The notes beneath the pieces are model-generated. The model saw only the letters and a program-made list of their open reading frames with translations. It made no database searches and was not told the DNA's origin. A stretch of DNA of 23,566 bases, from IMG/VR virus record IMGVR_UViG_3300032053_000534, positions 1-23,566 of that record. One strand, written 5' to 3'. Shown here piece after piece: positions 3,143 through 20,024 of the stretch (position 1 is its first letter; every line of letters starts with the position of its first letter). Origin of the DNA: a virus. Position numbers and translations under genes: made by a program.

Positions 3143-4570
3143 CTAGTTCAGATTGTCGACGATCACCTTCGAGTAGAACTCGGGGCGGATCAGCGTGACC
3201 TTGTGACGCGTGCGGATCGCGCGGCGCAGGCTGAAGTCGTTCGGGTCTACGAAGTTAGGCGTGATCTCCATCGGGATGTACGGGCTGTAGATCAGGCCCG
3301 TGTCCAGAATCGACGGACCCTGGTAACCCATCAGGATCTCGTTGCTCGGGAACATCGGGTCGACATAGACGACCCACTTGCGGCTGAGCACGCCGCCCTT
3401 CATGAGGCCGCCCTGGTAGACGTGGCCCTCGTCCACCGACGCGAAGCCGGGCATCGTGTCGAGGAGCGCCGCGATCTCCGAGCTGGTGATCACCCAGTTC
3501 GCCGACGACCGCTGGGTCCGACGGTGGATCAGGTGGCTCGCCTCCGACATGCGGATCAGGAGCGACTGGAGGTGCTCCGGATCGCTGACGGCCGACGGGG
3601 TCGCGCGGTCCCAGTGGAGCATCGCACCCGGCTCGACGGCGTTCAGAGCCGTGCCGGCGATCTCGCGGTCGATCTCGGCCGTCATCTCGTCGCTCATGTG
3701 GGCGACGAGGTCGGCGTCGATGTCACGACCCCAGAGAGCGCGGAGGTCGTCCGCAGCCTCGACCGACGCCAGGCTCTTGAGCTTGCGGCTCTCGGCCTGG
3801 ATCGACTGGATCGCGATGTCGAGCTGGACCTCGGGAATCCGGGGGTTCAGCTCGTTGTCGTAGCGGTAGCGCAGACGGATGTCCGCGTTGGCCGCGGGCG
3901 CCGTACCGAACGTCACCGACGTTACGCCCGTCTGGTAGTTCAGCGTGCCACCACCAGCGGTCATGACGCCGGACAGGTTGATCCAGTTCTGATTGCCGTC
4001 GTCCGTAGCGACCTGGACGTTGTTGACCAGGAGGATCACCGAGCCCGGGATCATGCGCGGGAAGGCGAGGTTCTTGTTGAACGCGACGGTGCCCGCGTCA
4101 CCGGTGCCGAACAGCTCGCCGTCGATGAAGTTCGAGCTGTACCACTTGTTCAGGGTCTTGTTCATCTCCTGACCCTTGACAACCTGGCCCTTATCGGTCG
4201 CGTAGCGCGGCCGGTAGAAGGCGATACCACCGATCGGCCCAGTCATGGGCTGGACCGAGGCGATCTGGGTTGCCACCAGGCGGACGGCCGCACGGCGGAT
4301 GACGGGGAGGACGAACTTCATGAAGGGGCCGACGCTCAGGGCGCGGGTCTCCTCAGAGAGCCGGCGGAGGTGACCCGCCTGGTTCTCCAGCATGAAGGCC
4401 GCGATCGAACGGACATAGTCCGCCTGACCACGGGGGGCGAACTTGTCCAGCTCGCCCTCGATACCCTCCAGAAGGGGCTCCCACTTCTGGATGTAGCGCT
4501 TGACGAGACTGCTGTCAGCGAGGGCACACCCCTCAGCCGACTCAGAAAACGTGGATCGGGCGGTGAACAC
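3143..4570 (-). CDS. Major capsid protein, T4 gp23-like, 475 aa
   Basis: This is the HK97-fold shell protein of a T4-like head. The N-terminal part (about 1-75) is the helical segment that should be removed in maturation. Then comes the family signature IRRAAVRLVATQIASVQPMT (91-110), followed by GPIGGIAFYRPRY. Internal motifs include TAEIDREIAGTAL and a C-terminus ending RPEFYSKVIVDNLN, both typical of gp23-like proteins. The start is GTG at 4570, placed by AGGAGG 6 nt upstream; the longer frame runs into the protease gene and is not real protein there. Length is somewhat below T4 gp23 (521). RLSE at 70-73 fits the T4 protease rule of cleavage after [LI]-x-E. It follows the protease-scaffold gene by 10 nt and is closed by the terminator at 3083-3120. 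Confidence 0.93.
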   Translation of the reverse strand: MFTARSTFSESAEGCALADSSLVKRYIQKWEPLLEGIEGELDKFAPRGQADYVRSIAAFMLENQAGHLRRLSEETRALSVGPFMKFVLPVIRRAAVRLVATQIASVQPMTGPIGGIAFYRPRYATDKGQVVKGQEMNKTLNKWYSSNFIDGELFGTGDAGTVAFNKNLAFPRMIPGSVILLVNNVQVATDDGNQNWINLSGVMTAGGGTLNYQTGVTSVTFGTAPAANADIRLRYRYDNELNPRIPEVQLDIAIQSIQAESRKLKSLASVEAADDLRALWGRDIDADLVAHMSDEMTAEIDREIAGTALNAVEPGAMLHWDRATPSAVSDPEHLQSLLIRMSEASHLIHRRTQRSSANWVITSSEIAALLDTMPGFASVDEGHVYQGGLMKGGVLSRKWVVYVDPMFPSNEILMGYQGPSILDTGLIYSPYIPMEITPNFVDPNDFSLRRAIRTRHKVTLIRPEFYSKVIVDNLN

Positions 4571-4580
4571 GTAGTTCCTC

Positions 4581-6419
4581 CTAGACCTTCCGCTGTGAGT
4601 TCTTCTTGCCGACACCAGCGAGCTGCCGCAGCTCATCCATTCCGATGCCGAGACCAGTAAGCGAGCGAGGTGTCGTCTCCGTTCGGTGTTCTGAGGAAGC
4701 ACGCTGCTCCTCAGTCAGGGCTTCACGTCCCCGACCAAGCGAGCGGCGGACGCGCTCGCTTACACCACCCGGCTCCTCACCGTGAATATCCCATTCCTCG
4801 GCAAGAGAGTTGATTGCCTCAACCGAGTTCAGATGACCATTCTCCACGCGCGACAGGATGTCCTGCCGACGAGGGTGGCCTAGCGTCCGACGATCGGCGT
4901 GCGAAATCATCTCCGCAATGTTCGCCTTTTCGGACGCTTCTTGCAAGGCTCGCTCCAGCCTGGAGATCCGATCGGCGGCCTCCTGGATGGTGCTGTCGCG
5001 CTCCTTGATATTCTTCTCGAAGCGGTGAACGACGGTCTCGATCTGGCTTGCAGCCTTCTCGCGAACCTGCTCTACCGTCTCCTTCGCGATCGAAGCCTGC
5101 TTCTTAGCTACATCGACCTTGTGATTGGCGACCACGAGCGCACTATCCGTCTGCTCCTGAGCCGACGTACGCGCCCGATCGGCCGACTCGATCGCGACCT
5201 TCAACGAAGCCTGAAGATCCTCGACCGAGGCATAAGAAGCCGGGTCACCGACGATCCCACGAATGGTGTCCGTATCGGTCCGACCCTCAAGCGACCGCTC
5301 AATGTAGAGCGCCAGCCCGTAGCCCTTAGCCTTGCTGATCGCGGCCTGCTTGATCGACTCAGCCTTGACGAGCTGCTCCTTCAACTGAGCGATCTCGGCG
5401 GCATGCTCTTCGTCTACCGCACGATACTGCTCACCCAGGCTGACGATCTGCTCCTTGAGGTGCTGGGTCTCTTCGATCTGGAAGGAGACCTGCCGATCGT
5501 CAACGACGATCTGCTCACGAGCAGTCGACCCACCGTAGGGCTTGAGCATCTCCGCGATGGACTCCAGCGTCGTCTTGGCGCCGGCCACGTTCGGATCGGC
5601 GAGCAGCTCAGAGCGGACAACGTCCTCCACCTGGCCGCGCTGGCGCTGGAGCGCACGAACAAGACGAACGGAGAAATCGTCCTGCATCTCCTTACGGAGC
5701 TGGTGTCGCAGCTCAACGCCTACATGCTCACGCAGGCGAGCCTCAAGCTCAATGACTTCCTGCGTATGGACTTCCGACAGAACCGACTGCGCCTGCAGGC
5801 GCGCGCGCTCTTCGATCAACGCAACCGCGGTCGGGAACTGGTTACGGACCGCCGCTTCGGTGATCTTCGACGGCTCAATGCCCTCGGCGACGAGTTTGGG
5901 GTATGCATCTCCACATGCAGGATCACTTACAAAGTCATAGCCGTAGAGCCGGAAGTCTTCACCGACGAGCTGCCACCCCTCGGGCGCGGCGCGTGTCGAA
6001 CCGATACCACGGCTCGACATGCCCGGGCAACCGCCTGCGCGGATCACGCCCGCGAGGTCAGAGCCAGCCGCCGTTCCCTCGATGATCTCGTAACGACCGA
6101 TTACTCGGCCGTCCTGCTCGATCCGGAGGCCGACGCAGATCGCACCGGCATCACGAATCTTACTCTTGCCATCGGGTGGGTGATCAACCGATGCGAAGAG
6201 CGAACGAGCGGTGATACGCTCCTGCAGACGAGTGACCTCGCGCGACATGATCGGACGAGGGTAGAAACGACCATTTGCCGTAGCAAAGTCGCACATGCCG
6301 ACCTTGCCCTCGACAACGAGCTTACCGCCTGTGTCCTTCCCCTCCAGGATGGTGAGGGCGACCGGGCCGACGGACTCGACCAGGACCTGGCGATTGTCTT
6401 GCGCGATCTGGGCGGGCAT
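4581..6419 (-). CDS. Prohead protease-scaffold fusion protein, 612 aa
   Basis: Residues 1-180 are a prohead protease of the T4 gp21 type (MEROPS S80-like): GRFYPRPIMSREV (50-62), SVDHPPDGKSKIRDAG (77-92) with the likely catalytic His80, and GCPGMSSRGIGS (130-141) with the likely nucleophile at Ser135/136. From about 200 to 510 the protein is a long charged, heptad-rich coiled coil of the kind expected for a scaffolding core. The C-terminal ~40 residues (SLTGLGIGMDELRQLAGV) may contact the shell. In T4 the two functions are separate genes 21 and 22. Here the gene lies directly before the capsid gene, with no separate scaffold gene visible, so one protein probably both forms the core and digests it. 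The ATG at 6419 has GGAGG 8 nt upstream. Confidence 0.88.
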   Translation of the reverse strand: MPAQIAQDNRQVLVESVGPVALTILEGKDTGGKLVVEGKVGMCDFATANGRFYPRPIMSREVTRLQERITARSLFASVDHPPDGKSKIRDAGAICVGLRIEQDGRVIGRYEIIEGTAAGSDLAGVIRAGGCPGMSSRGIGSTRAAPEGWQLVGEDFRLYGYDFVSDPACGDAYPKLVAEGIEPSKITEAAVRNQFPTAVALIEERARLQAQSVLSEVHTQEVIELEARLREHVGVELRHQLRKEMQDDFSVRLVRALQRQRGQVEDVVRSELLADPNVAGAKTTLESIAEMLKPYGGSTAREQIVVDDRQVSFQIEETQHLKEQIVSLGEQYRAVDEEHAAEIAQLKEQLVKAESIKQAAISKAKGYGLALYIERSLEGRTDTDTIRGIVGDPASYASVEDLQASLKVAIESADRARTSAQEQTDSALVVANHKVDVAKKQASIAKETVEQVREKAASQIETVVHRFEKNIKERDSTIQEAADRISRLERALQEASEKANIAEMISHADRRTLGHPRRQDILSRVENGHLNSVEAINSLAEEWDIHGEEPGGVSERVRRSLGRGREALTEEQRASSEHRTETTPRSLTGLGIGMDELRQLAGVGKKNSQRKV

Positions 6420-8587: not shown

Positions 8588-11500
8588 TTAGAACCTACGC
8601 GCGGCCGATGGAAGAGCAGAAACATGACCGTTGCTGTTGCGCAGTGCGAGGCTACGCAGATCGTTCACCAGTCCGATAGCCTGCCCAACCTTATCGGACA
8701 ACGACTTATCGTTCTCCATCAGCCCGTGAATCTGATCAACCAGTCGTTGGTGATTCTGGCGCGACATCTTATCGCGCTTCTCTTCGAGCCGTTGAACGGC
8801 GTCGTAGTTACGAATCTGCTCGCTGCGACTAGGTGGCGCAAACGGCATTGACGCTGACGGAGGAGGTGGCGGCGCACCAACAGGCGCACCAGCAGGCGCA
8901 GCGCCGGGCGCGCCTTGAACGCCGGGCGCACCCGGTTGCACCTGGCCCATCGGATCGGCGGCAATCGGAGGCGCAGACATGAGTGCCTGCTGTTTCTGCT
9001 GCATTTCGGCCTGATGCATGGCCTCGTTATCCGACTGTGTCTCGATCGCCGCGATTTCTTCGTCGGAGAGCTTGAAGACGTGCTCTCGAATCCACCGCAT
9101 CGAGACGTAGGGCTGCACACGCGACGCGAAGTCAGCGCGAGCGTTCTTGACCTCCATCGCCGCGAGTTCATAGATGCCCGAAGGCACAGTCATGCAGACC
9201 TCAAAATCGGTCTGCCACGCGTTCGGGTAACCACGAGCTGCTTGATCAATGCGGACGAGCCGCTCGATCCCGTTACGCAGCTCCTTCTGCACCTGAAGCG
9301 TTACACGAGCGGCGCGGACGTCTTCGGACGAAAGGATCGCCTTGCCTTGGATCGGTGCATCCTGGCCGAGATAAGCGCGGGGCACCTTCAGCGCGCCGTG
9401 CAGCTTGCGCTGGAAATAGCCGACGTCGTCAATGTTCTGGTAGTCGGGGCCTGCTAGCACTTCGACGCGCGCGAGATTACGGCCGTCGGAAACGGCAATC
9501 ACGTAATCTTCATCCATGGAGTTCTTTACGAACACACCGGCTGATGTAGCGAACGTGTGTGTTTCGTCGACGGTAATGCAGTACGTGTCCTCACGCTCTG
9601 CGAGCCACTCGACCGAGACGACCTTGTGGTTGTCGCACGGAGCGAGCTGCTTGAAGTCGGCGAAGCTCTTGAACCCAAGGTCGCGCGCCATCCACCGGAG
9701 CATCTCGCGGTGGACGTTCTTGATCTTCTTCGTTTTGTTCGGGTTCGCCTTCTTCAGCAGCTCGACAAATCCGCATTCGTTCGCGATGGCCGCGATCCTC
9801 GGCGCGCCAGCGTCGGGTTCTTCCGCGACAAGAGCGCGAATCGCGTCGACGAACTCGTCTGAGTAAACGAGCTTGTTCTTCTCACTCACGGACGCACGGT
9901 TCTCGGGCACCGCCCAAAACGCGAGTCGGCCGGCTCGGCGGATCGTGTTATCGGCCTTGTGCTTCTTGGAGGCGTTGTATCGACGGATGTACTGACCTGA
10001 GTCGCGCGCACGGTTCTGTTCGCTCGTGCGAGCGCGCTTCTCTTCGGAGATGTTGTAGGCGGTGATGTTCCTCGCCGCAACCGCTCTCATCCGCTGATCG
10101 AGGTCTGGATCAGCTCGACGCGCTGCTGCTACCGCATTACCGCCATTGAAACCGGCCTCCCGATGAAGTGCAAGATGCGCCTCCCACTCCATGAGCTGGA
10201 GATTCTTCGGCGAGTTATTGAGCGGATTGAAGTCAACGTGGTGTGTGACGCGCCCGTCCCCCACGACCTTACCGAGTAGGGTCTTCGCAACGACCCTGTG
10301 CGTGTAGAACGATCGCTTCGCAGCAGGGTCGTAAACCAACTCGTAGCCGTCGAGCGTATCGCCGACCTTCTTGTCACTCACACGCCGACGGAAAGGCATG
10401 AGCGAATCACCTGGCTTCAGTGACCCGGCTTCGACGAACTCGCCATTACGTCGAATGAACTTGTGGTCCGGCGTCGCCTTGATCGACTCGCCGTTGTCGA
10501 GGGTGACCTTGACGATCTGTGCATCACAACGAGTCTTGCCAGCCCAGACCACCTTCCCTGGAGTAAGGGCGCCTTCGCGCGAGAGGTCGGTCGAGTAGAT
10601 CCACTGCTCCTCACCGCGCTCGAACGCAGCGGCGAGTTCGACCATGTCCCGCTCCGACCCGTCAAGGAGCGGCACCTTGGTCGCTGCCGCCAGACAGAGC
10701 GGGTTATATCGCATGTCCAGCCGACCAGTTCGTGGGTCGACCATGGACTTCTTCTTCAGATCGCGCTTCTGCTTCTGCAGAAAGGCTTCGCGCTTCGCAG
10801 GCGGAACGTCGGTGACGTCTACGTAGAAGGCGTTTCGTGCTGGAGAGCGTGTGAGCTTATAGATCATCACCGCGTCTTCGAGCATGACAAGACGCTTCCA
10901 GATCCAGCGAGCAGGTTCCTGCACCGCCGCCCCGTAAGGAGATCTACGCGCATGACCACGTAGACGGAACTGAACGATCTGCCAGTCCTCGAAGAGCGCG
11001 ACATGGGCAGGCACTTCAGATTGCCCAGCGAGCATTCGGCGTAGTTCGTCCTGCTCGGCAGTAAATCGTCCAGAGATGTCCTGGACGAAGCCGATCAATG
11101 TCCCGTCAAGCCGCTCAACCCGGCGGACCGTCGGCGCGGGAAGGTGATTCAAGCCGACGACGCCGTTCTCGGTGACGAGCACTTCCTCGAAGTCATTGCC
11201 CATTGAGCAAAGACCGAAGGCAAGACTGAACGCGTCGTCCTCAAGACGAAGCCGACGCTTCAGCATGGCGTTAGCAGACCCGACGATCGCAGCGTCGCGC
11301 GAAGTTACCCAAATAGTGCGACCGTTGTCAGCATTAGGCTGCGTCGCGTCTGAGGCGAAGTACTCGATCGCAGTACGAATGTCTGGGTAGTCTTGCATAG
11401 CCTCATAGTCCGCATAGCGGTCCATGAGGTTCTGGCTGATCGAGAGCAGACCACCGACGTCTTCGCGACCCCACACGGAATAAATCGAGGCGGGGGAGTT

Positions 11501-11602
11501 CCGCATCGCCTGCGCTGACGGCGACTCGGCGGCGATGCGGTCTTCGCGCTCCGCATCGAAGAGCGTTCGGAGCGACTTGAGAACATTGTCGCGAAGGCCC
11601 AT
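8588..11602 (-). CDS. Portal protein, T4 gp20-like, with an in-frame intein
   Basis: The translated 1004 residues are N-extein (1-302), intein (303-694) and C-extein (695-1004), giving a 612-residue mature portal. Portal features are a helical N-terminus, ILxxSQ-like LLSISQNLMDRYADYEAM (52-69), DYPDIRTAIEYF (71-82), and after the junction SMDEDYVIAVSDGRNLARVE (695-714) and DDVGYFQRKLHGALKVPRAY (725-744), equivalent to the E-D-Y-W and Y-F-x-K-K-L-Y-x-x-L-x-V-P motifs of gp20. The C-terminal region has a Gln/Pro/Ala-rich linker (860-925) and a coiled coil. It forms the dodecameric DNA-entry vertex and starts prohead assembly. The ATG at 11602 is 7 nt after the upstream stop. The intein splits the most conserved part, so splicing must be efficient for head assembly. 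Confidence 0.9.
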   Translation of the reverse strand: MGLRDNVLKSLRTLFDAEREDRIAAESPSAQAMRNSPASIYSVWGREDVGGLLSISQNLMDRYADYEAMQDYPDIRTAIEYFASDATQPNADNGRTIWVTSRDAAIVGSANAMLKRRLRLEDDAFSLAFGLCSMGNDFEEVLVTENGVVGLNHLPAPTVRRVERLDGTLIGFVQDISGRFTAEQDELRRMLAGQSEVPAHVALFEDWQIVQFRLRGHARRSPYGAAVQEPARWIWKRLVMLEDAVMIYKLTRSPARNAFYVDVTDVPPAKREAFLQKQKRDLKKKSMVDPRTGRLDMRYNPLCLAAATKVPLLDGSERDMVELAAAFERGEEQWIYSTDLSREGALTPGKVVWAGKTRCDAQIVKVTLDNGESIKATPDHKFIRRNGEFVEAGSLKPGDSLMPFRRRVSDKKVGDTLDGYELVYDPAAKRSFYTHRVVAKTLLGKVVGDGRVTHHVDFNPLNNSPKNLQLMEWEAHLALHREAGFNGGNAVAAARRADPDLDQRMRAVAARNITAYNISEEKRARTSEQNRARDSGQYIRRYNASKKHKADNTIRRAGRLAFWAVPENRASVSEKNKLVYSDEFVDAIRALVAEEPDAGAPRIAAIANECGFVELLKKANPNKTKKIKNVHREMLRWMARDLGFKSFADFKQLAPCDNHKVVSVEWLAEREDTYCITVDETHTFATSAGVFVKNSMDEDYVIAVSDGRNLARVEVLAGPDYQNIDDVGYFQRKLHGALKVPRAYLGQDAPIQGKAILSSEDVRAARVTLQVQKELRNGIERLVRIDQAARGYPNAWQTDFEVCMTVPSGIYELAAMEVKNARADFASRVQPYVSMRWIREHVFKLSDEEIAAIETQSDNEAMHQAEMQQKQQALMSAPPIAADPMGQVQPGAPGVQGAPGAAPAGAPVGAPPPPPSASMPFAPPSRSEQIRNYDAVQRLEEKRDKMSRQNHQRLVDQIHGLMENDKSLSDKVGQAIGLVNDLRSLALRNSNGHVSALPSAARRF
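9521..10696 (-). mobile_element. Intein with HNH homing endonuclease inside the portal gene, 392 aa
   Basis: The splice boundaries are Cys303 of the precursor (CLAAATKVPLLDG, block A) and Asn694, followed by Ser695 (TFATSAGVFVKN|S). Block B is GESIKATPDHKF with the T-x-x-H motif; block F is TYCITVDETHTFATSAG. Between them lies an HNH endonuclease, THHVDFNPLNNSPKNLQL (453-470) with a His further on (EAHLALHR). After it comes a basic helical region (about 485-580) that could bind DNA. The penultimate residue is Lys where most inteins have His, which can slow Asn cyclisation, though natural inteins without this His exist. Insertion is between Leu302 and Ser695, just before the conserved M-x-E-D-Y motif of the portal. 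Homing into intein-free relatives is inferred from family knowledge. Confidence 0.9.
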
Positions 11603-11609
11603 TCGGCTC

Positions 11610-12764
11610 CTACGAAGTCGCGAGGAAGACCCCGCCAGCTACGAAGGTATCAGAGGCTACAGGAGATAGCGAGAGGCAACGCGTCGAGTTATGGCACACA
11701 ATGCCATCAACTACGAGGTTACCCGTCTCAGTGGTCACGTCAAAGACTCGATATGGCTGCGTCATGTCCGGCTTCGGCGCGACCGTAACCCAGACGGTAC
11801 CGGGTGAATGGCTGGTCAAAACGGCGAGCGACTTCAGACTAAAGCCAGGGAAGGTGCTGATCACCCGATCCCCTACCTTGAGCGTGTAGGCGTCGACGTA
11901 TCCGCGATCGACTGTAAGTATCTGATGCTCTGGAGTTACCCGAAGCGTCGCGTGATTACTGAAGCCGATTTTGAGAACTGGTGCAGCCTTCTTGGTCAAC
12001 CAGGCGTTTGCGACCGCGACGTTCCGTAGGCTCTGTGACTTCTCGTCGTATCCAATGAGTGGGCGCCAGATTCCCTCGGCAGCATACAGATCAATCGCCA
12101 TGGGGCGCACCATAGCGCCCTCGGCTACGTAGACCTGCGAGGTCGACGCGAAGCAATGGCCTTGCTCGACTGAGGCCACTGCGTGATTACGTGACCGCTT
12201 GAATCCAGCCAAGAGCTTCTCGGCTGCTGCGAGCGCGGCGCCAAGCCCGGTCTTACGCACCTGGTGCGATAGATCGTGGAATACGACCTTGAGGTTCGAC
12301 GGATCGGCGTTGGTCTTGTCTTTGTCGACGAAACAGACCGACTCTCCTGGCTGAAGACGCCGACCGAGCATGTGCTCAGCTACTAGCCGACTGATCGGCC
12401 GCCACCGACGGCGATCAGACTCGGCCAGAGCGTCACAGTGCCACGAACCTGGATCTAGATAATGCAGATAGCCGTCGGTCCGACGGGTGTAGAACGCCAG
12501 AAGTGAGTCACCGACCTGAAGATCCTTCGCAGCCTTCCTGGACTTCTGCAGCAGGAAGATCTGGTCAGGACTTGCCTTGATTACCGTCTTATCGTCGAGC
12601 GTGACATCAAGTACGTCAACATCGTGTTCGACAAGCGTAGGCTTCACTACGCCAACGGTAGGCCGCGTACCATCCCAGGAGATCACTTGGGTCTCAGACC
12701 CTGCATACTTGAAGAGCGCATTCGGCCCCTGCAGGGTGGCGAGACTCGTCCACTCGTCGAGCAT
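11610..12764 (-). CDS. Degenerate Hint/HNH protein interrupted by a mini-intein, 384 aa
   Basis: Residues 1-203 plus 360-384 together make one intein-like unit. Block A is YAGSETQVISWDG (20-32), with Tyr where Cys1 belongs. Block B is DDKTVIKASPDQIFLL (57-72), where T-x-x-H has become S-x-x-Q. An HNH-like stretch, ESVCFVDKDKTNADPSNLKV (141-160), has the His-His pair replaced by Cys-Phe. NHAVASVE (193-200) and TRCLSLSPVASDTFVAGG (361-378) form block F. The end FLATS has Ala-Thr in place of His-Asn. All three splice-critical sites are therefore lost. The short N-terminal flank MLDEWTSLATLQGPNALFK may be all that remains of an original host protein. Residues 204-359 are a separate, intact mini-intein. 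ATG and the upstream TGA overlap as TGATG. Any role beyond carrying the inner intein is unknown. Confidence 0.75.
   Translation of the reverse strand: MLDEWTSLATLQGPNALFKYAGSETQVISWDGTRPTVGVVKPTLVEHDVDVLDVTLDDKTVIKASPDQIFLLQKSRKAAKDLQVGDSLLAFYTRRTDGYLHYLDPGSWHCDALAESDRRRWRPISRLVAEHMLGRRLQPGESVCFVDKDKTNADPSNLKVVFHDLSHQVRKTGLGAALAAAEKLLAGFKRSRNHAVASVEQGHCFASTSQVYVAEGAMVRPMAIDLYAAEGIWRPLIGYDEKSQSLRNVAVANAWLTKKAAPVLKIGFSNHATLRVTPEHQILTVDRGYVDAYTLKVGDRVISTFPGFSLKSLAVLTSHSPGTVWVTVAPKPDMTQPYRVFDVTTETGNLVVDGIVCHNSTRCLSLSPVASDTFVAGGVFLATS
11688..12155 (-). mobile_element. Intact mini-intein nested in the degenerate intein, 156 aa
   Basis: Residues 204-359 of the 384-residue product carry every splicing element: Cys1 in CFASTSQVYVAEG (block A, same spacing as the portal intein), T-x-x-H in LRVTPEHQIL (block B), RVFDVTTETGNLVVDGIV (block F), and the end CHN followed by Ser360. 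There is no endonuclease domain, and 156 residues is near the minimum for a splicing intein. Removal would join ...VASVEQGH to STRCLSLSPV..., which restores an uninterrupted C-terminal Hint segment in the host protein. That the flanks rejoin into a recognisable block F is the main support for nesting rather than two inteins side by side. Confidence 0.78.
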
Positions 12765-16323: not shown

Positions 16324-18801
16324 CTAGCGTCGGAAGGCAGGCTGGTCCATGACCGTCTTACCGAGCTGGAGCTGAATCTTCTCCCAGCCCCAGCACTCGA
16401 CGTCGAGCGCGAACCACGATCCAGTAGGCGGGCGCACGAGGCACTGCTCACCCTTGGGAATGTAGGCGATCGTGGCGTGCGGCATGTAGCGCTCGGCATA
16501 GGCGTTCTTCACACCCTTGTTCTTGCCGTAGTCGTGCTTGACCTCGATCTCAGCCGCTTCGAGCGCCTTTCGCAGGTCCGCGTGCAGGACGTTGAGCGTC
16601 GGGAAGATACCCTTATCGTAGGCGCGAAGGGTTCGCGAGGTCGCGTTGGCGTAGAGAACGTCGTAGTCCTTGTCATTGTCGAAGACGTCGGCACCGTGCA
16701 TATCCATGAAGAACGGCTGATAGTTCGCAACGACCGTCTGCACCACGTCAATCATGGTCTTGTAGTCGGACGGAGAGAGTGATCCGACATGAAGCACTGT
16801 GACGTGTGGCACCACGCTACTGCAGTCGTTCGGACCGATCATTCGCGGGAACTGCCTAGCCAGATCGGTAGGGAGCGGAATCACGATCGAGCAGGAGACT
16901 TCTTTGCTCCCAGTCCGTGGGTCATGCATCTCCGGTGTCGGTGTGTCGTGTGTCTCGGCCGCGAACCAGTCGAGCGGGAACTCGTCTACGACGAGGTCAG
17001 GCTCAGGCGCATCGTCGGTGATGATCCCACCAGCGTAGACCGACTCGGTCGTCGGTTCCGAAGTAAGAGCCTCGTCCGGGAGCTGACCGTATGGGATCAC
17101 ACGAGCCTGGATGTGCGTGTCGCCGTTAGCGATAGCCTTGTGCAGGCGGTGCGACCCGTCGATCAGATCCAGCCCATGCTTTGGGTATTTCACCAGGAGG
17201 ATCGGGTGCATCACAGCCCGCGCAGCACGGGCCTTGAACGCGCCTGACCCGAGTGGTTCGCCGGCCTTGAGACCACTTCCTGGCTTCAGGAGGTGCGCCA
17301 GGGACTTCACAGGGATCGACTGCACTGGATGGCTCTCGACGGCGTAATCATGGACCTTGCCGATGTTCCAGAACCGAGGAGCCTCGTTACCGTAGCTGCC
17401 GCCGAACGTCTGATCACGCCACGGAATATCGGTCGACTCCTTGTGGATCTTCTTCAGCATCGTGTAGTAGCGCGGGTTCTCCTTCAGGTGATCGAGCGCG
17501 ATCTCCTTCGCGATCGCCTCACTCCTTGTGTGCTCCAGTTCGACCTTGATGCCCATCCGGAGCTGCTCCGGATCGACGTCCTTCTCGGACGTCTTGTCGC
17601 CCTTGCCACCGGGGATCAGGTCCTTACGCTCACCCAGAAAGAGCTTGACCACTGGCGCGGCTGCTTGCACCGCCTCGGAGTGGTGAGTCGGTGGTTCGTA
17701 AGTCACAAGACCACGGGCGTCACCACGCGGATGCCGGCGTAGCGTGAGCTTCTGGCCGTAGCCGTGGTGATCGTGCGCAGCCTGAAGAGCCGCCAAAATC
17801 TCCGGACGACTGTGATCTTCGTTGGGGTCAACCAGGCCGCGGAGCAACGTCTGGTGCATCACCTTGTCGCCATTATCAGGCGTAGGAAGATGCTTCGCAG
17901 CGTGCAGACCGACCTCATGCCGCTCAGTCGACTGACCACGACTCACCAAATCAGCACGAGCTGCGTCAAGCAGCTTGTGCTCGGCGTCGTCAACCGCACG
18001 TACTGCCGCCTGCGCAACACCATGAGCGGCAGGCTTTACGCCGCGCTTCGCCTCGTCCGCCGTAGGCTTCGCGATCGCAGCATTACGTCCTGTTACGATC
18101 TCGTGCTGCCTGGCCGCCCAAAGGGCATTGCCAGCATCCGCGACTGACAGCCCGCTCTCTTCCTTCTTCGCCTCCCCAAGCATCATCTCAATGATGGACT
18201 TGGTGTTTGCCGTGAACGCTCGACCGATCGACTCGTCAGTCTTCCGTGCGAGCTTCATGACGACCTTCTCGCCCTCCGCCGGGTCAACACCCAGCGAGCG
18301 CAAGAACGAGTGCATGTCTCCGTCGGTAGCCTTCGGATTTGCCTTGAGGAAGCGCTCAATCGACTTCTGGTCACCAGGGCCAGGCTGCCGATACCGCGAC
18401 GGACTGGGCTTCGGCGTCCCATCTGGGTTGAGATCGTCACGGCCGTCATTCTGAAACGGCTTGGCGTCTGCAGGCGGCTGCTCACTTGGGTCAGCCTGAT
18501 TACCGCCAACAGGCGGCTCAGGTGGTGCTGCAGGAGGCGCTGCGACGTCCGCCGGAGGCGCTTGATCCGGCGGTGCTTGATCCGGCGGTGCGTCTGCAGG
18601 CGGCGGCTGCTGGTCAGCCGGTGCCTCTTCTGGAGGCGCTTCCTCTGGGGGCAGCTCGTCCGCAGGAGGTGCGGCTGCGGCGCCAGGCGGCGGGACTGGT
18701 GGGATAGTCCCACGACGGACCTGCGGCGCCTCGTTGAGCACCGACTTGATCCATGCACGACCTACGAAGGCCGAGAGCGTCTCGGCGAGCTTCTTCTTCA
18801 T
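16324..18801 (-). CDS. Multidomain protein: Pro-rich, DUF5661-like, ParB-like, 2H phosphoesterase, 825 aa
   Basis: Order of parts: N-terminal helix; Pro/Ala/Glu-rich low-complexity stretch with PPDQAPPDQAPPAD repeats (about 33-115); helical region (140-400); DUF5661-like MGIKVELEHTRSEAIAKEIA (416-435) followed by LDHLKENPRYYTML; a ParB-like segment ending LDLIDGSHRLHKAIANG (544-560); and a C-terminal 2H phosphoesterase-like domain with two H-x-T motifs, VPHVTVLHVG (664-673) and MPHATIAYIP (773-782). 2H enzymes open 2',3'-cyclic or 2'-5' phosphodiester bonds; phage Acb1, which destroys CBASS signals, belongs to this superfamily. Whether this is a structural, injected or cytoplasmic protein is unknown. 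GAGGGG precedes the ATG at 18801 by 3 nt. All four catalytic His/Thr positions of the 2H domain are present. Confidence 0.75.
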   Translation of the reverse strand: MKKKLAETLSAFVGRAWIKSVLNEAPQVRRGTIPPVPPPGAAAAPPADELPPEEAPPEEAPADQQPPPADAPPDQAPPDQAPPADVAAPPAAPPEPPVGGNQADPSEQPPADAKPFQNDGRDDLNPDGTPKPSPSRYRQPGPGDQKSIERFLKANPKATDGDMHSFLRSLGVDPAEGEKVVMKLARKTDESIGRAFTANTKSIIEMMLGEAKKEESGLSVADAGNALWAARQHEIVTGRNAAIAKPTADEAKRGVKPAAHGVAQAAVRAVDDAEHKLLDAARADLVSRGQSTERHEVGLHAAKHLPTPDNGDKVMHQTLLRGLVDPNEDHSRPEILAALQAAHDHHGYGQKLTLRRHPRGDARGLVTYEPPTHHSEAVQAAAPVVKLFLGERKDLIPGGKGDKTSEKDVDPEQLRMGIKVELEHTRSEAIAKEIALDHLKENPRYYTMLKKIHKESTDIPWRDQTFGGSYGNEAPRFWNIGKVHDYAVESHPVQSIPVKSLAHLLKPGSGLKAGEPLGSGAFKARAARAVMHPILLVKYPKHGLDLIDGSHRLHKAIANGDTHIQARVIPYGQLPDEALTSEPTTESVYAGGIITDDAPEPDLVVDEFPLDWFAAETHDTPTPEMHDPRTGSKEVSCSIVIPLPTDLARQFPRMIGPNDCSSVVPHVTVLHVGSLSPSDYKTMIDVVQTVVANYQPFFMDMHGADVFDNDKDYDVLYANATSRTLRAYDKGIFPTLNVLHADLRKALEAAEIEVKHDYGKNKGVKNAYAERYMPHATIAYIPKGEQCLVRPPTGSWFALDVECWGWEKIQLQLGKTVMDQPAFRR

Positions 18802-19712: not shown

Positions 19713-20024
19713 ATGGATCGTAAGACAGTGACGAAGAAGGAAGTCGCCGCGGCGATTTCCACGAAGACCGCTCTGCCAATCACCCAGGTGGGTGAAGTGG
19801 TGCAGCTCTGGATGGACCACTTGATCGAGGAGCTGGCTGACGGCAATCGAATCGAGCTGCGCGATTTCGGTGTATTCGAGGTGCGACAGCGTGCTGCACG
19901 CACCGGACGCAACCCGAAGACGGGTGAGAAGGTCAATGTTCCTGCGCGTGCGGCAGTTGTCTTCAAGGCCGGCAAGGTCATGAAGGCGAAGGTCGAGTCG
20001 AGCGCTACCGTCGCGAAGATCTAA
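19713..20024 (+). CDS. HU/IHF-family DNA-binding protein, 103 aa
   Basis: The whole length fits the family: N-terminal helices (MDRKTVTKKEVAAAISTKTA, then TQVGEVVQLWMDHLIEEL), the strand NRIELRDFGVFEVRQRAART (46-65), and the DNA-bending arm GRNPKTGEKVNVPARAAVVF (66-85). A short basic tail follows. HU-like proteins bend DNA and help replication, packaging or transcription; the binding specificity is not visible. GGAGG lies 9 nt before the ATG. The gene is transcribed alone and followed by a terminator. Confidence 0.93.
   Translation: MDRKTVTKKEVAAAISTKTALPITQVGEVVQLWMDHLIEELADGNRIELRDFGVFEVRQRAARTGRNPKTGEKVNVPARAAVVFKAGKVMKAKVESSATVAKI

Follow-up and report, generated by a model that had tools for sequence, protein, structure and literature searches.

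An intact-looking mini-intein nested in a catalytically dead, intein-derived Hint-HNH protein of a T4-like phage

Directly upstream of the portal gene of a T4-like phage, an open reading frame of 384 codons (11610..12764, minus strand) holds, as far as its residues and those of its relatives tell, an intact-looking mini-intein nested in a catalytically dead Hint-HNH unit. What decides for nesting is that relatives of the outer unit exist in uninterrupted form. Very probably, the gene encodes a domesticated, non-splicing, extein-less, free-standing Hint-HNH protein of the head operon, with a live class-1 mini-intein inside. The nested arrangement is known from one metagenomic contig.

Results

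The locus

The window, that is the whole stretch of DNA analysed (23,566 nucleotides, or 23.6 kb), carries T4-type head genes on its minus strand: portal gp20, prohead protease gp21 and major capsid gp23. Its source virus is a T4-like phage. The portal gene (8588..11602, minus strand; PF07230, E 1.2e-45, and PF14890) has an HNH intein of its own, 392 aa long (residues 303-694, 9521-10696, minus strand; PF14890), with intact motifs and inserted at NPL|C...KN|S. This site is empty in the portal of L002, which is 84% identical to that of the window and has a LAGLIDADG-type intein at a different position; the L002 contig stops 9 codons into its portal gene. Elsewhere in the window lie genes for a histone deacetylase family protein, unusual for a T4-like phage (21048-21935, minus strand; PF00850, E 1.4e-25), for an 825-aa protein with DUF5661 and a 2'-5' RNA ligase-like domain (16324-18801, minus strand; a weak Acb1 match, E 0.04) and for an HU-family DNA-binding protein (19713-20024; PF00216), the latter on the plus strand, opposite to the head genes.

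The 384-aa reading frame is tightly packed between its neighbours. At its 5' end, the ATG and the stop codon of a preceding 88-aa ORF overlap (TGATG); at its 3' end, 8 bp separate the stop codon from the portal ATG. Pfam reports PF14890 (Intein_splicing) in two stretches, together with a degenerate HNH_3, in agreement with the two Hint units that the first-pass annotation of this DNA had read there. An AlphaFold prediction of the full ORF from six sequences reached a pLDDT of 43, and a single-sequence search of viral_contigs and phages for relatives of the whole ORF returned none past the HNH part.

The inner unit

Residues 204-359 (11688..12155, minus strand) make up a mini-intein of 156 aa, without endonuclease domain. 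The residues that were said to be intact in this unit are all there, as placed by sequence and alignment on the minus strand: Cys1 is Cys204 (12153..12155), the T-x-x-H of block B is T277-P-E-H280 (11925..11936) and the C-terminal junction is His358-Asn359|Ser360 (11685..11693). Besides PF14890, two NCBIfam models match, TIGR01445 (intein_Nterm) at residues 204-284 with 23.6 bits, for a cut-off of 24.5, and TIGR01443 (intein_Cterm) at residues 340-360 with 18.0 bits, for a cut-off of 15.6. Against a model of its relatives from which it had been left out, the inner unit scores 148 bits, the maximum of 200 shuffles being 2.6. With the portal mini-inteins of L148 and L149 it shares 44% and 41% identity, respectively, and the tree places it, with support 100/99, in the mini-intein clade that occupies the portal site (E/D)YPDI(N/G)|C...HN|S in L148, L149, L150/L151, L153 and L087. 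The block-F His is replaced by Gly (T-G-N-L); the portal mini-intein of L151 has Lys at this place, with the remaining motifs intact. By all the motifs tested the inner unit is a mini-intein of the ordinary kind, and it is apparently able to splice itself out. It is inserted in frame into a protein whose relatives occur uninterrupted.

One unit inside the other

Excising residues 204-359 joins NHAVASVEQGH to STRCLSLSP... and restores a collinear match to these relatives, which bears out the proposal that one unit lies within the other. The profile used here was made from five uninterrupted relatives, the window being excluded. Against it, the N-terminal part of the outer unit (residues 1-203; 12156..12764, minus strand), comprising the Hint N-terminal region, a dead HNH and NHAVASVEQGH, scores 108.8 bits when taken alone, and 118.0 bits, as one end-to-end domain, when the C-terminal part is joined on (residues 360-384; 11613..11687, minus strand), which contains block F and ends in AGGVFLAT|S. 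This gain of 9.2 bits puts the real joined tail above all of 200 shuffled tails (109.8 +/- 1.1 bits, maximum 116.4); reading on from residue 203 into the inner unit gives 109.1 bits. Nearby cut points with equal excised length score about alike, so that it takes the Cys1 and Asn|Ser motifs to fix the boundary exactly. Since the 25-aa tail alone finds no match among family models, its assignment rests on the relative-based profile. Once spliced, the tail would count 36 residues from NH to the end, and the matching stretch of L087 is equally long. A joint alignment of the minis and the outer proteins put the two Hint units out of register and was rejected.

Relatives of the outer unit lacking the insert, which the first-pass annotation had suggested looking for, were found directly upstream of portal in L009/L010, L021/L022, L087, L148 and L150/L151, and L008 has a fragment of the same family. 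In genome_contigs, neither the outer nor the portal family was found. A search for a further nested pair, judged by the order of Hint halves in the loci of relatives, gave no convincing case.

Register and residues of the outer unit

The outer unit was rightly taken to be homologous to the intein of the window portal (local score 115, z 17 versus shuffles). Its beginning had been misplaced. A Tyr (TAT) was first read as the remnant of Cys1, but in MAFFT alignments, both to live inteins and to the uninterrupted relatives, it is the initiator, Met1 (12762..12764, minus strand), that falls on the Cys1 column (window MLDEWTSLATLQG, L148 MIAGDTLIHTLQG, live L006 portal intein CVTGDTLVRTLDG), and the structure predicted for the L148 protein aligns from intein residue 1. 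It follows that Tyr20 is not Cys1 and that there is no N-extein: the 19 residues that precede Tyr20 are intein sequence. Were Tyr20 the first residue, the block-B Gln would lie only 48 residues on; this distance is ~70-78 in the inner intein and in those of the window portal and of TerL. A block A in another upstream frame (CGIQVTASVVTDARR, a frameshift reading) was also considered, but Met1 and Cys1 align without a gap and the L148 protein has its start at this very position, so that this reading was given up. The outer unit is therefore without exteins, as it begins at the Cys1 column and meets its stop codon directly after the C-terminal Ser, one residue past the intein end.

The other losses are present as claimed: block B reads S65-P-D-Q68 (12561..12572, minus strand) in place of T-x-x-H, the terminal His-Asn has become Ala-Thr, and the catalytic His pair of the HNH is now Cys144-Phe145, which sets the protein apart from HNH endonucleases. 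The HNH_3 region itself (residues 125-161; 12282..12392, minus strand; PF13392, E 1.9e-4) matches at 21.4 bits, below the cut-off of 24.8. With Met1, SPDQ and Ala-Thr, the unit fails the residues that define inteins, and its relatives have lost them too; for this reason we describe it as an intein-derived protein and do not file it as an intein.

The outer family

Position 1 is Ser in L009 and L021, Ala in L087, Met in L148 and Gly in L150, while block B reads SADQ in both L009 and L021, SSEQ in L087, SNKC in L148 and SPSS in L150. Cys1 and TxxH are found together in none of the outer relatives, and in block B all six outer lineages have Ser at the Thr position and no His. This loss across relatives indicates that the death of splicing is old and common to the family. 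The six lineages are divergent (28-41% identity), and in each the frame is open and sits at the same location. Translation starts at position 1 in L148 and the window, and one residue earlier in L009, L021 and L150; only L087 has an N-terminal extension, of 18 aa. Starts and stops of the outer gene overlap or abut its neighbours in the window, L009, L021 and L148. In the tree the outer clade has support 99/95, and a second tree unites the family with the L149 portal intein at SH-aLRT 95. By their count of K+R, five of the six members are basic, only slightly.

The gene is under constraint. Its dN/dS, computed for one pair of lineages, L009 versus L021, the window not being included, is 0.19 (95% interval 0.12-0.29), where the same comparison at the locus yields 0.08 for portal and, for two further genes nearby, 0.21-0.34. 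Its fold has also been kept, to judge from L148: AlphaFold2 models the outer protein of that lineage, from 28 sequences, with pLDDT 89.6 and pTM 0.84, and residues 1 to 225 of the model align at Z 19-20 with inteins that include Mtu RecA, NrdJ-1 and Npu DnaE. In this uninterrupted relative, then, the C-terminal tail completes the Hint fold.

These observations tell against the idea, put forward initially, that selection on its content holds a dead outer unit open: in all six lineages the family is catalytically dead, and five of them lack the content. Selection on the content alone fits no better with an outer gene that is itself under purifying selection in the L009/L021 comparison. The outer unit would be better described as a domesticated ex-intein whose gene plays ordinary host to a live mini-intein.

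Mini-Hint layouts

The mini-Hint appears in three layouts. It lies in portal in L087, L148 and L150/L151, where the outer gene is uninterrupted; it forms a gene of its own in L009 and L021; and it is inside the Hint-HNH protein in the window. The portal mini-intein site is empty in L009, L021 and the window, the latter as seen from the sequence at DYPDI. Each of the six lineages thus has one mini-Hint per locus. In L009 and L021 the separate gene, of about 160 aa (~4498-4980), lies just upstream and extends to where the outer gene begins. These free-standing minis come from the lineage of the portal mini-inteins, in the clade of the inner unit, and are dead, with Gly at position 1 and the terminal His-Asn lost; their dN/dS of 0.49 (0.32-0.77, L009 versus L021) denotes a weaker constraint than that of the outer gene. 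That every full-locus lineage has one mini-Hint and one outer protein, three versus three, is suggestive only. It may be that the clade keeps a fixed exapted pair, mini-Hint and dead Hint-HNH, by way of three gene layouts, with splicing delivering both partners here, a conjecture that we hold to be on the improbable side.

In L149:1-1056 the portal has an HNH intein followed, eight residues on, by the mini-intein, with only SMDDYPDIN between them, and L103:2-7696 has a portal ORF of 2565 aa with about five Hint-HNH units.

Discussion

If the domesticated gene with its live insert is what we see, the 384-aa precursor would be translated whole, after which Cys204 and Ser360 would perform the N-S acyl shift and the transesterification. 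Cyclisation of Asn359 and ligation would then release a mini-Hint of 156 aa and an outer protein of 228 aa, in which residues 360-384, the C-terminal strands, could at last complete the outer Hint fold. As for function, we can propose, tentatively, that the outer protein acts by binding, DNA or packaging and portal partners being the likeliest targets, as a former homing endonuclease kept to bind and not to cut; the slightly basic character of five of the six members speaks weakly for it.

Other readings of the locus have to be weighed against this one. The outer unit could be the functionless, decaying fossil of an intein, left behind when its host gene, TerL for example, moved away. TerL does lie directly upstream of portal in L006 and L007, holding an HNH intein in L006; in the L009 phage about 125 kb separate portal from the TerL match. 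The loss of the catalytic residues and the long branch of the window outer protein (1.6-1.9 in the trees) also go in this direction. Yet the same dead protein, in the same position and in an open frame, recurs through six lineages as divergent as those described above, with a low dN/dS between L009 and L021, a complete fold modelled with high confidence in L148 and, in the window, a coding signal for the current frame, so that mere decay seems quite unlikely. Within the window no significant remnant of TerL was detected. In the tree, the live intein that comes closest to the outer family is a partial one, of HNH type, in the L149 portal, so that a portal intein is as probable an ancestor as a TerL intein. 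Very unlikely, in turn, is a simple tandem, where NHAVASVEQGHCFASTSQVYVAEGAMV would close the outer unit and the 25 residues at the C-terminus would be unrelated to it. In pairwise local comparison with the portal intein the two C-terminal readings score close to each other (40 versus 37), and L009 and L021 do carry the two units as separate tandem genes, an arrangement that the first-pass annotation had regarded as speaking against nesting. Nesting in the window stands nevertheless, since the outer gene of L009 and L021 goes on without interruption to a block F of its own and is preceded by the mini gene, which is not at its end; moreover, relatives run from NHK.. straight into block F, and the joined tail adds 9.2 bits to the profile score when the tandem reading adds 0.3.

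The inner unit, for its part, might be inactive or able only to cleave, leaving the precursor whole or cut. The Gly at the place of the block-F His and the demise of the free-standing minis of L009 and L021 would fit this. We still judge it unlikely, as Cys1, TPEH, His-Asn and Ser+1 are all kept, against a wholesale loss in the outer proteins and the free-standing minis, and as the host gene belongs to a family under purifying selection. Finally, a nested case seen in a single metagenomic contig brings to mind an assembly chimera of two phage loci. Such an accident is barely credible here: the insertion is in frame and bounded exactly by Cys1 and Asn|Ser+1, its excision leaves a tail as long as that of L087, and the flanks on both sides are the same gene beside the same portal. 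A domesticated Hint-HNH gene hosting a mini-intein accounts best for the locus.

What is at stake is a natural intein inside an intein-derived protein, with uninterrupted relatives for comparison, and a family where an intein became a free-standing, non-splicing and conserved phage protein. Nesting and domestication together bear on the open question of whether inteins can serve their host beyond splicing, and the shift of a mini-intein one gene over, to a new site and without endonuclease, bears on the spread of inteins devoid of homing endonuclease. Were the exapted pair real, protein splicing would make a single nested ORF the source of two functional proteins. We found neither an intein inside an intein nor a free-standing dead intein gene described in the open PMC literature, which was the scope of our search; the mentions of 'nested' inteins examined there concern nested endonucleases.

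Comparison with known systems

The inner unit is closest to the class-1 mini-inteins without homing endonuclease found at the DYPDI site of portal (L148, L149, L150/L151 and L087), with which it shares fold motifs, clade (100/99), a length of 154-165, Cys1, TxxH and HN|S. It differs from them by its host, which is the ex-intein gene next door instead of portal, and by the Gly at the block-F His. The outer unit has the Hint-HNH-Hint layout, the fold and the length (228-246) of the HNH inteins of phage portal and TerL (PF14890 with PF13392), the nearest live one being the partial intein of the L149 portal; portal and terminase inteins have been reported in mycobacteriophage surveys (PMC5050341). 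Unlike these, it is extein-less, with its start codon at the Cys1 position, has lost Cys1, TxxH and the terminal HN, and has degenerate HNH residues. Eukaryotic Hint domains and bacterial intein-like (BIL) domains have been proposed to be domesticated inteins (PMC5784728) and, like the outer unit, keep the Hint fold outside classical inteins; they are, however, parts of larger proteins, whereas here a non-catalytic Hint-HNH makes up the entire protein, encoded in a phage head operon. Exapted mobile elements of prokaryotes, too, are immobilised and kept by purifying selection, as the outer family is (reviewed in PMC8987985). The inteins cited among them are switches that still splice; the outer family, by contrast, has lost splicing, and it is the protein itself that has been kept.
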